Source: Spartobacteria bacterium
GTDB taxonomy: Bacteria; Verrucomicrobiota; Verrucomicrobiia; Chthoniobacterales; UBA10450
Reading direction: 5' to 3'
Assembly: GCA_003134765.1 (NCBI GenBank)
Contig: PLCM01000031.1
Coordinates: 250,601 to 314,600 of the forward strand
DNA: 64,000 nt
Every line of letters starts with the position of its first letter. The stretch's first letter is position 1. This document shows, piece after piece, positions 5,547 to 8,469 of this stretch. The notes under the pieces were generated by a model. That model did not search any database. It had not been told where the DNA came from and saw only the letters and a list, made by a program, of their open reading frames with translations. Made by a program: the position numbers and the translations under genes.

Positions 5547-5629
5547 GTCATCCCGAGCGCAGTCGAGGGATCCAGCGGAGTTGCCTTAAAGCTTGCAACC
5601 CGGGATCCCTCGACTGCGCTCGGGATGAC
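5547..5629. repeat. Palindromic repeat with perfect 27-bp arms
   Basis: Arms at 5547-5573 and 5603-5629 are exact inverted copies, beginning GTCATCCCGAGCGCAGTCGA. The outer sequence GTCATCCCGAG is shared with the 157-bp A elements, but the interior is short (29 bp) and unrelated. It lies in the divergent gap upstream of both the secreted-protein gene and the nuclease-ligase gene, so it is not simply a terminator. Confidence 0.85.
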
Positions 5630-5703
5630 AGATGCTGCGAGGCGCCGCGATATCCAGATCGAATCCTGGTTTCGCAGGCCGCAGTTCCCGGGTAAAATTT
5701 TGC

Positions 5704-8469
5704 GTGATTGAAGTGCGATACGAACGCGGCGTTTATCTGCCCAACGAAGATATCTGGCTCGATCCGTCCGAGGCAAAACCGTTCGCCTTTGTTTCGCACG
5801 CGCACAGCGACCACATCGCGCCGCACGACGAGATCATCGTTTCGGAACGGACAGCGCGGTTGATGCAGGCGCGATTGCCGGGCGAACGGAACGAGCATGT
5901 CCTGAACTTCGGCGAAAAGACCGCGATCCGCGGGCTTGATGTCACCCTGATTCCCGCTGGCCACATTTTTGGCTCGGCCCAGTTTTTCCTGGAAACGGAG
6001 AGCGGTTCGCTGCTTTACACGGGCGATTTCAAATTGCGGCCGGGCCGCTCGGCGGAGCCGGCTGAATGGCGACAGGCCGAAACGCTCATCATGGAAACCA
6101 CCTTCGGCATGCCGCGCTACCGTTTTCCTCCCACCGAGGAAGTGGTCGGCCAGATCGTGGCGTTCTGCCGCGACGCCCTGGAGATGGGCGCGGTGCCGGT
6201 CCTGCTCGGCTACTCGTTAGGCAAGGCGCAGGAAATTCTTTGCGCGCTCGCAGGCGCGGGGCTCAAGCCCATGTTGCACGGCACGGTCCATCGGATGACG
6301 AGGATTTACGAACAGTTCGGCCAGTCATTTTGCGATTATGAGCGCTACAATGCGAACGAGGTCGCGGGCAAAGTCCTGATCTGTCCGCCGAGTGTAAACC
6401 GCTCGCGCATGCTGGAAAAGATTCGCGAAAAACGGGTGGCCATGATCAGCGGATGGGCGGTCGACCCGAGCGCGGTCTATCGCTACCAGGTGGATGCCGC
6501 GTTCCCGCTCTCGGACCACGCTGATTACACCGATCTCATTCGTTATGTGGACCTGGTAAAGCCAGAGCGAGTGTTAACCCTGCATGGCTTCGCGGCGGAG
6601 TTCGCGCGCGATCTGCGCGAACGAGGAATCGAAGCGTGGGCGCTGAGCGAGGAAAACCAGATGGAGCTGAAGCTCGACCGCCTGGGGAGCGCGCGCGTCT
6701 CGCGTGTTGGTTGCGACGTCTCGCCGCAACAGGCTTTTCCGGCAGCGACCGCTGATGGGAAAGTTCGCGATGGCGAGGACGCCATCGCCAGCACGCGAGA
6801 AACGTGCGCTCCCCAATCAGAATTTGCCGCATTCGCCGCAGTCGGGGAAACGATCGCGGCAACTCCCGCGAAGCTGGAGAAGGTCCGTTTGCTCGCGGAA
6901 TACTTTCGAACACTGAATCCGGCGCAGCTCGCGATCGCTACCATTTATTTTACCGGCAAGCCGTTTCCACAAAACGACCTGCGCACGGTCCAGGCGGGAT
7001 GGGCTGTCATTCATCGCGCCCTGATAAGCGCGGCGAAACTGACGGAACCGGAATTCCGCCGGATCGCGAGTTCGCACGGAGATGCTGGCAAGACGGCGCT
7101 CGAAGCATTGGAGGCACGGACGATTCCCGAACCATTCGCACTCGCCGAATCGCGCCAGCTTTTCGATGCGTTGCACAAGACCCGGGGACCGCTGGCCAAG
7201 ACGGAGCTTCTGCAAAAGCGTCTCGCGAGATTGTCGGCACGTGAGGGCCAGTACCTGGTCAAGATCCTGACGGGCGACCTGCGGATTGGTTTGCGCGAGG
7301 GGCTGGTGGAAGAAGCGATTGCCGCCGCCTTTTCCACCCCGCTCGATGAAGTCAAAGAAGCAAACATGCTTCTGGGCGATATCGGCAACGCCGCCCTCCT
7401 CGCCTCCAAAGGTGAACTGCAAAGCGCGGAGCTGTCGTTGTTTCGCCCGATCAAATGCATGCTGGCCAGTCCCGAGCCGACGGCGGAGGCAATTTGGGCC
7501 CGGTTCGCGGCTCCAGAAGAAAGCAAAGCGGTTTACGTCGAGGACAAGTTCGACGGAATCCGTGCGCAGATTCATCGCGGAGCTGGCCGCGTGGAAATCT
7601 TTTCGCGCGATCTGCGCCGCATGACGGACCAGTTTCCCGAGCTTCGAGATCAGGCGGGCCAGTTCAGGGACGAGGTCATTCTCGACGGTGAGATCATGGC
7701 GTTCGAGCACGGGAAGAAGCTGACCTTTTTCGACCTGCAAAAGCGGCTCGGCCGAAAGAATGACGGAGCCGACTTATTTGCAACCGCCTCGGCGGACGTC
7801 CCGGTCGTGTTCGTCGGGTTCGACCTGCTCTGGAGGAACGGCGAACCGTTCCTGCGGCGTCCTTTGCGCGAACGACGGGAGGCATTGCGAACTCTAAGAC
7901 TGCCAGCCGGTTTTCAGATCGCGGAAGTTTATCCCGCTCACTCGGCAGAGGAGATCGAGACCGCGTTCCAACAGGCGCGACGCCGCTTCAACGAAGGCCT
8001 GATGGTGAAAGACCCCGAGAGTCTGTATTCGCCCGGCCGGCGCGGACTGTTCTGGTTCAAGCTAAAGAAGGAACTCGCCACCCTGGACGTGGTCGTAGTG
8101 GCGGCGGAGCTGGGGCACGGAAAACGCAATCACGTCTTGAGCGATTACACGTTTGCCGTGCGCGATGAAATTAGCGGCCAGCTGCTCACGATCGGTAAAG
8201 CGTATAGCGGACTAACCGACGTCGAGATCGCAGAACTGACCGAGCATTTCAAGAAGCAGACGATCTCTAACCGCGGACGCTACCGCGAAGTGAAACCGGA
8301 CACGGTTCTCGAGATCGCCTTCGACTCCATCCAGCCGAGCAACCGGCACGAGAGCGGTCTGGCGCTACGCTTTCCGCGCATCAAGGCCATTCGGCGCGAC
8401 AAAACCGTCGATGCCATCGACACCCTCGCCTACGCGTGCTCGCTTATGAACGAGCGCGCGGCCAAATAA
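5704..8469 (+). CDS. Fusion of beta-CASP/metallo-beta-lactamase exonuclease and ATP-dependent DNA ligase
   Basis: About 921 residues. Residues 1 to about 325 match the ligase-associated exonuclease, with the metal-binding HAHSDH (32-37), GHIFGSAQF, YTGDF and a late DHADY motif. After a linker comes an ATP-dependent ligase: an N-terminal domain from about 375, an adenylation domain with the nucleotidylated Lys in EDKFDGIR (K615), LDGEIMAF and the LMVKDP/WFKLKKE segment, then an OB domain. The two activities are usually encoded by adjacent separate genes with an Lhr-like helicase and a phosphoesterase; neither is found here. The linker (327-370) is encoded by a palindromic element. I chose the GTG at 5704 because upstream codons run into the palindrome at 5547-5629. 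Role: nick or double-strand-break repair (inference). The gene ends exactly where a convergent gene ends. Confidence 0.92.
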   Translation: MIEVRYERGVYLPNEDIWLDPSEAKPFAFVSHAHSDHIAPHDEIIVSERTARLMQARLPGERNEHVLNFGEKTAIRGLDVTLIPAGHIFGSAQFFLETESGSLLYTGDFKLRPGRSAEPAEWRQAETLIMETTFGMPRYRFPPTEEVVGQIVAFCRDALEMGAVPVLLGYSLGKAQEILCALAGAGLKPMLHGTVHRMTRIYEQFGQSFCDYERYNANEVAGKVLICPPSVNRSRMLEKIREKRVAMISGWAVDPSAVYRYQVDAAFPLSDHADYTDLIRYVDLVKPERVLTLHGFAAEFARDLRERGIEAWALSEENQMELKLDRLGSARVSRVGCDVSPQQAFPAATADGKVRDGEDAIASTRETCAPQSEFAAFAAVGETIAATPAKLEKVRLLAEYFRTLNPAQLAIATIYFTGKPFPQNDLRTVQAGWAVIHRALISAAKLTEPEFRRIASSHGDAGKTALEALEARTIPEPFALAESRQLFDALHKTRGPLAKTELLQKRLARLSAREGQYLVKILTGDLRIGLREGLVEEAIAAAFSTPLDEVKEANMLLGDIGNAALLASKGELQSAELSLFRPIKCMLASPEPTAEAIWARFAAPEESKAVYVEDKFDGIRAQIHRGAGRVEIFSRDLRRMTDQFPELRDQAGQFRDEVILDGEIMAFEHGKKLTFFDLQKRLGRKNDGADLFATASADVPVVFVGFDLLWRNGEPFLRRPLRERREALRTLRLPAGFQIAEVYPAHSAEEIETAFQQARRRFNEGLMVKDPESLYSPGRRGLFWFKLKKELATLDVVVVAAELGHGKRNHVLSDYTFAVRDEISGQLLTIGKAYSGLTDVEIAELTEHFKKQTISNRGRYREVKPDTVLEIAFDSIQPSNRHESGLALRFPRIKAIRRDKTVDAIDTLAYACSLMNERAAK
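6684..6814. repeat. Palindromic element inserted in frame inside the nuclease-ligase gene
   Basis: The ends GGGGAGCGCGCGCGTCTCGCGTG and, inverted, CACGCGAGAAACGTGCGCTCCCC pair with few mismatches. The interior holds two further hairpins: GCGATGGCG/CGCCATCGC, and an imperfect one around TTGCGACGTCTCGCCGCAA. About 44 codons are read through without a stop, exactly between the exonuclease and ligase domains. Multi-hairpin elements like this are normally intergenic. Confidence 0.8.

Follow-up and report, generated by a model that had tools for sequence, protein, structure and literature searches.

The window analysed here (the whole stretch of 64,000 nucleotides from a Spartobacteria bacterium, genome G000) contains a gene in which an exonuclease is fused to an ATP-dependent DNA ligase, with a short hairpin-forming element lying between the two. 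The features of the region are as follows.

5547–5629, no strand assigned: unrelated intergenic repeat just ahead of the fusion gene, a near-perfect inverted pair (GTCATCCCGAGCG...CGCTCGGGATGAC)
5632–8469, plus strand: exonuclease–ATP-dependent DNA ligase fusion ORF, 945 aa; an alternative start at ~5707 is possible
5722–6651, plus strand: ligase-associated MBL/beta-CASP exonuclease domain, aa 31–340 (TIGR04122, E = 2e-71; RMMBL)
6684–6814, plus strand: REPIN-like element of 131 bp, of which frame offset 1 is translated (GGG AGC GCG = G-S-A)
6684–6709, plus strand: left REP or terminal arm, GGGGAGCGCGCGCGTCTCGCGTG(TTG), forming the outer stem by pairing with 6789–6814
6710–6730, plus strand: inner hairpin 1 of the fold
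6733–6764, plus strand: inner hairpin 2 of the fold
6767–6788, plus strand: inner hairpin 3 of the fold (GCGATGGCGAGGACGCCATCGC)
6789–6814, minus strand: right REP or terminal arm, an inverted copy of the left arm
6820–8433, plus strand: ATP-dependent DNA ligase part, aa 397–934 (PF04675, PF01068, PF04679; TIGR04120; K639)

The enzyme domains of the fusion gene are under purifying selection, with dN/dS of 0.05–0.09 between relatives. The nuclease and ligase motifs are invariant across relatives, as is the catalytic Lys639 of the ligase part among those compared. The exonuclease domain ends at aa 340 and DNA_ligase_A_N (PF04675) begins the ligase at aa 397, and nearly all of the linker between them is element, with ~4 non-element codons left. 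In an AlphaFold model of the fusion protein aa 343–392 are disordered (pLDDT < 50), and the two parts on either side are well folded (mean pLDDT 83). The REPIN-encoded stretch is thus predicted by the model to be a floppy, disordered linker that joins both halves of a DNA-repair enzyme.

Structure and copies of the element

The first-pass annotation had described a palindromic, multi-hairpin element of 131 bp in frame between the two domains. The element and its reading are confirmed, the ORF crossing it with ~44 stop-free codons (peptide GSARVSRVGCDVSPQQAFPAATADGKVRDGEDAIASTRETCAP), as is the strong multi-hairpin character; yet the element is not one palindrome but an inverted pair of repeats. 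It runs from GGGGAGCGCGCGCGTCTCGCGTG at 6684 to CACGCGAGAAACGTGCGCTCCCC at 6814, its two termini being inverted complements of each other (CACGCGAGA...GCGCTCCCC). Folded with DNA parameters it has an energy of −53.2 kcal/mol; two helices (24 pairs, the pairing of the arms spanning 26 nt) make up the outer stem, which encloses the three inner hairpins. For dinucleotide-shuffled sequences the energy is −31.2 ± 3.0 kcal/mol (z = −7.4), and none of 300 is as low. Rfam gave just two sub-threshold microRNA matches, both on the upstream hairpin and neither on the element.

A BLAST search of the organism's own genome with the element returned 43 matches at ~32 distinct places, the segment with inner hairpin 3 (element positions 77–131) being the commonest among the copies. 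The family is present in 23 of 39 genomes searched, the own genome counted. Essentially all copies have the head GGGGAGCGC (GGGGAG) in place of the tetranucleotide GTAG; GGGTAGC heads were seen in related elements of G010 and G016. TCT usually precedes both ends of the copies. The coding status of each copy was judged from codon usage on both flanks in all six frames, in place of genome-wide gene calls, a copy being in frame if one frame was coding on both sides and the element open. By this measure two of the ~32 places in the own genome are in frame, in the fusion gene and in hrpB, and the remaining ~30 are outside coding frames, many of them between convergent genes. The family is thus extragenic as a rule, with in-frame copies as rare exceptions, as the first-pass annotation had anticipated for such elements.

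The REPIN copies have more open frames (4.2 of six) than shuffled sequences do (3.3). In 67 of 76 REPIN strands no stop interrupts the offset-1 frame (G-S-A-R). It is the frame used by the inserts in the window gene, in hrpB and in metH, and it matches the frame of the metH transposon described below at the left end of that transposon.

The age of the fusion and recurrent insertion in its linker

The nuclease–ligase junction lies in one intact, stop-free frame in all 48 genomes compared (that of the window and 47 relatives in Verrucomicrobiota), with linkers of 51–141 nt, and most of these fused genes have no window element. Named Verrucomicrobiota are also fused, including Chthoniobacterales, Opitutaceae, Akkermansiaceae, Pedosphaera and others. 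The nuclease and ligase are two separate genes in the Bacteroidota and Acidobacteriota checked. Since fused homologues mostly lack the element, the fusion predates it. The suggestion that the element had itself made the fusion, by deleting the stop codon between adjacent genes, has in its favour that the element sits exactly at the domain junction and that Bacteroidota hold the two genes as separate neighbours. It is nevertheless very improbable given fused genes of several orders, mostly without the element, and given that the nearest relative in the tree (G006) is fused through an ordinary 72-nt linker. The element as creator of the fusion was therefore rejected, whereas the second possibility raised in the first-pass annotation, a tolerated in-frame linker like those of Rickettsia, is supported.

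The linker has received other repeats. In G004 the fusion linker contains the window family in frame, and at least five other repeat families are in frame there in other species. These include a GGGTAGCGCACGCG-type repeat (G026), CTGTAGAGGCC-type repeats (G010, G012, G017, G024 and G032), a GTAGCGGCGGGTG repeat (G022) and a CATCCCGAGCG repeat of non-REP type (G016 and G031). Searched against their own genomes, the linkers find from a few to dozens of extra copies; segments taken as controls from the ligase portion of these genes match little beyond themselves and their orthologues. The folding z-score of the linker is below −3 in 12 of 36 genomes, compared with none of 144 control segments. 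On a tree of the enzyme domains (a quick version, with element labels and family assignment made by inspection) the well-supported branches require that the label 'no element' was gained or lost at least 11 times. The weaker cases are a linker hairpin in G036 and G030 that has no other copies in their genomes, one in G033 whose copies are found in G016 alone, and the linker of G020. Taken together, the sequences indicate that the fusion linker is a recurrent landing pad for unrelated repeats.

The CATCCCGAGCG repeat type is that of the intergenic pair at 5547–5629, and also occurs in frame in metH of the own genome. G010 has two different repeats in its fusion linker and another in a ligase loop near aa 628. 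This second permissive loop, ahead of the ligase active site and numbered as in the window protein (L050, G010), is filled by REP-like sequences in G010 and G012; its inserts in G028, G030 and G034 are unclassified.

Other genes show the same pattern. The hrpB copy of the window family (G000:C34, L199:2001–2118) lies in a gene identified as HrpB by NCBIfam, between its two matched stretches. The hrpB loop is 135 nt in G000, with the window family, and 159 nt in G016, with a GGGTAGCGC type; in the remaining relatives it is 18–48 nt. In the hrpB of G003 (L205) the loop peptide NPGSARETHALLG resembles a REPIN reduced to both ends, possibly by internal deletion. The uvrA gene of G022 (L077:2–2986, minus strand) contains the window REPIN family in frame. 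The own genome has at least five in-frame repeats, in the fusion gene, in hrpB, in recG (a whole RAYT) and two in metH. The latter gene (L285:179–4153) carries in frame two unrelated repeats, a CATTCCGAGCG inverted pair at aa ~365 and a GGGGAGCGCAGGCTGCC REPIN at aa ~994.

As far as named, the genomes compared are all metagenome assemblies, and misassembly or decay to a pseudogene might be suspected. Neither is at all credible: different elements occupy one site in independent assemblies and all are in frame, dN/dS is 0.05–0.09, and the nuclease and ligase motifs are invariant. The recurrence could also reflect target specificity of the transposase, the linker sites being chosen rather than having survived selection. 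The TCT before the element ends in most copies and the repeated use of several sites would fit this, but TCT is found at both ends and may be part of the element, and unrelated families, including the non-REP CATCCCGAGCG type, share linkers; we consider this explanation unlikely. That the element is retained for useful hairpins or a useful peptide, for example by slowing translation between the domains or by setting linker length, is in our view decidedly unlikely. Strong hairpins do recur in the same linker and the fold is strong, but many close relatives have an ordinary linker and no element, families, lengths and frames vary, and most copies are intergenic. The element is thus probably tolerated rather than beneficial.

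RAYT transposons within housekeeping genes

A scan for RAYT transposases (PF01797) found many of them inside open frames of 900–1513 aa, and with Pfam and NCBIfam host domains were identified on both sides of the embedded Y1_Tnp. In metH of G003 and G006 the Y1_Tnp lies between the S-methyltransferase and pterin-binding domains, and in that of G011 and G018 between the B12-binding and activation domains. It is located between the helicase motifs of recG, in the middle of carB, and between the two domains of sua5. RecG, MetH, CarB and Sua5 bearing the insert still score above the curated NCBIfam cut-offs, and may be working chimaeric enzymes. A Pfam scan of 16 interrupted proteins found no Hint domain, and listed Y1_Tnp in all but one.

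The RAYT elements in metH of G003 and G006 are each 577 nt, running from GGGGAGCGCACGCG, preceded by TCT/TCC, to CGCGTGCGCTCCCC, and are open from end to end. They terminate in perfect inverted repeats of 23–24 bp that correspond to the window REP consensus; in the G003 element the terminal inverted repeat is perfect and equals the 23-bp consensus GGGGAGCGCACGCGCCTCGCGTG of the left REP. As a result of this identity of the ends, the window element is best read as a miniature derivative of this 577-nt transposon. In the own genome no Y1 gene other than that within recG has a window REP within ~1.5 kb, and the ends of the RAYT in recG share the GGGGAGCGCA head with the window REP but differ in the stem. 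Alignment shows that the embedded RAYTs have their HUH and Tyr motifs intact. Their pN is well below pS, with synonymous sites near saturation, a comparison that hints that the embedded RAYTs might still be functional.

In a census of recG, carB and metH in 16 genomes each gene was found once per genome at E ≤ 1e-25; other RecG-like matches (35–38% identity) look like Mfd. The recG gene is interrupted in ten genomes (G000, G001, G003, G006, G007, G010, G011, G016, G017 and G038) and uninterrupted in five (G002, G004, G005, G018 and G022), while carB is interrupted in five (G005, G006, G010, G011 and G016) and uninterrupted in nine. A RAYT occupies metH site 1 in G003, G006 and G011, and site 2 in G011 and G018. 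Genes with and without an insert alternate inside a single genus, and at one RecG site the RAYT of G000 is of another type than that of its sister species G006; turnover of the RAYTs has therefore been repeated. Site 2 of metH provides a series, being empty in G005, filled by the window REPIN family in G003, G006 and G016, by another REPIN in G000 and G007, and by a full RAYT in G011 and G018.

Individual loci add to this description. The own genome's only recG (L262:2783–5482, G000:C41) has a whole RAYT in frame at aa ~395–524, in the first helicase domain. In-frame RAYTs at the two different metH sites are found in L263, L264, L265 and L266. The carB inserts of G005, G006, G010, G011 and G016 (L267, L268, L269, L270 and L283) are a second RAYT type, with a core of ~185 aa and other terminal repeats. 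In sua5 of G003 (L277:3527–5275, minus strand) the RAYT is flanked by in-frame GFQP-type repeats.

Our preferred interpretation, to which we give a probability of about 0.85, is that the window element is a REPIN-like miniature of a RAYT (Y1 HUH) transposon, tolerated in the linker of an older fusion. A non-autonomous derivative with two REPs, presumably mobilized by a RAYT, would have entered the interdomain linker of the already fused gene. The insertion would have been tolerated because the frame in use has no stop within the element, being the frame that the RAYT gene takes through both ends of the metH element, and because the linker entered is disordered and at the protein surface. The ~44 residues translated from the element DNA would now stand in place of most of the earlier linker. 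Not every element has a length divisible by three (131, 118, 575, 577 and 614 nt), so that insertion must have been followed by compensating changes; for the window element the comparison gave no clean empty-site pair. A single filter, a stop-poor element combined with a permissive loop, could account for the in-frame recurrence of unrelated REP families and whole RAYTs in the fusion gene, hrpB, metH, recG, carB, sua5 and uvrA.

Relation to known systems

REPs are defined as extragenic. The Rickettsia palindromic elements (RPEs) are the classical precedent for repeats that are translated in frame in unrelated proteins and tolerated there, and the window family resembles them in being in frame in unrelated genes (the fusion gene, hrpB and uvrA of G022). 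RPE-4 and RPE-6 carry a CGTC tag. The window ends have GGGGAGCGC and no such tag, setting them apart from RPEs as described. Moreover, we know of no dedicated transposase for RPEs, whereas a RAYT with the same ends was found for the window family.

A close relationship is also seen to the REP/REPIN and RAYT systems (Bertels & Rainey 2011, PMC3116915; Nunvar 2010, PMC2817692; Di Nocera 2013, PMC3733652). The shared features are short palindromes arranged as an inverted pair, dozens of copies that are mainly intergenic and, in the metH of relatives G003 and G006, RAYT genes flanked by repeats of the window family. The differences are the head GGGGAGCGC in place of the classical GTAG, and the location of the window element in frame in a coding gene, with the RAYT unit too inside host genes. 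Intragenic, in-frame REPs are described for several bacteria and above all for Opitutus terrae, many in DNA repair genes (PMC3733652, section 15); those named for O. terrae are in uvrA, RNA helicases and a DNA ligase, and two Xanthomonas recB genes have REPs at about one site. The likeness extends to in-frame REPs in a Verrucomicrobium with uvrA among the hosts, as in G022 here. The inserts reported there are short REPs and dimers of 20–30 aa, with clusters up to 82 aa, and that section makes no mention of whole in-frame RAYTs. The nuclease–ligase fusion gene has itself been noted in O. terrae and in Dry Valley metagenomes (PMC10140301, citing Ejaz & Shuman 2018), with a domain order identical to that of the window gene. 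In contrast to the REPIN-like linker found here, the part of that paper dealing with the fusion does not mention a linker repeat.

The TIRYT/TIRtron tyrosine transposases have long terminal inverted repeats, some overlapping gene ends, and the motif GGGGWSAS (PMC3733652, section 16). The GGGGAGCG of the window family fits this at seven of eight positions and differs at one; in-frame residence in host genes is not reported in that section. Short intragenic REPs are thus known from Rickettsia and Opitutus, but in the open-access literature searched we found no report of complete RAYTs whose reading frame passes at both ends into that of a single-copy housekeeping gene. A survey of the TnpA-Y1 family set aside proteins longer than expected, taking them for fusions or annotation errors (PMC6006769, section 5), and in-frame RAYTs may therefore have been filtered out earlier.

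A REP family and its complete transposon are thus read in frame in genes that the cell should not lose without harm, and from the sequences RAYT and REPIN elements appear able to live in genes without breaking them. RecG, MetH, CarB, HrpB and UvrA provide a natural catalogue of permissive loops. Such insertion is a possible route to new protein segments, and hiding in essential reading frames offers a testable answer to how RAYTs persist. As with inteins and homing elements, a mobile coding insert is kept in frame inside essential enzymes; unlike them, the RAYT inserts have no Hint or splicing domain, occupy variable loops and encode a Y1 transposase. We put at even odds the broader proposal that stop-free RAYTs and REPINs live in the frames of single-copy housekeeping genes of soil Verrucomicrobiota, with the transposase contained within chimaeric, working RecG, MetH, CarB and Sua5. 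The element would gain expression and protection from loss while its host remained undisrupted, an intein-like lifestyle without splicing.
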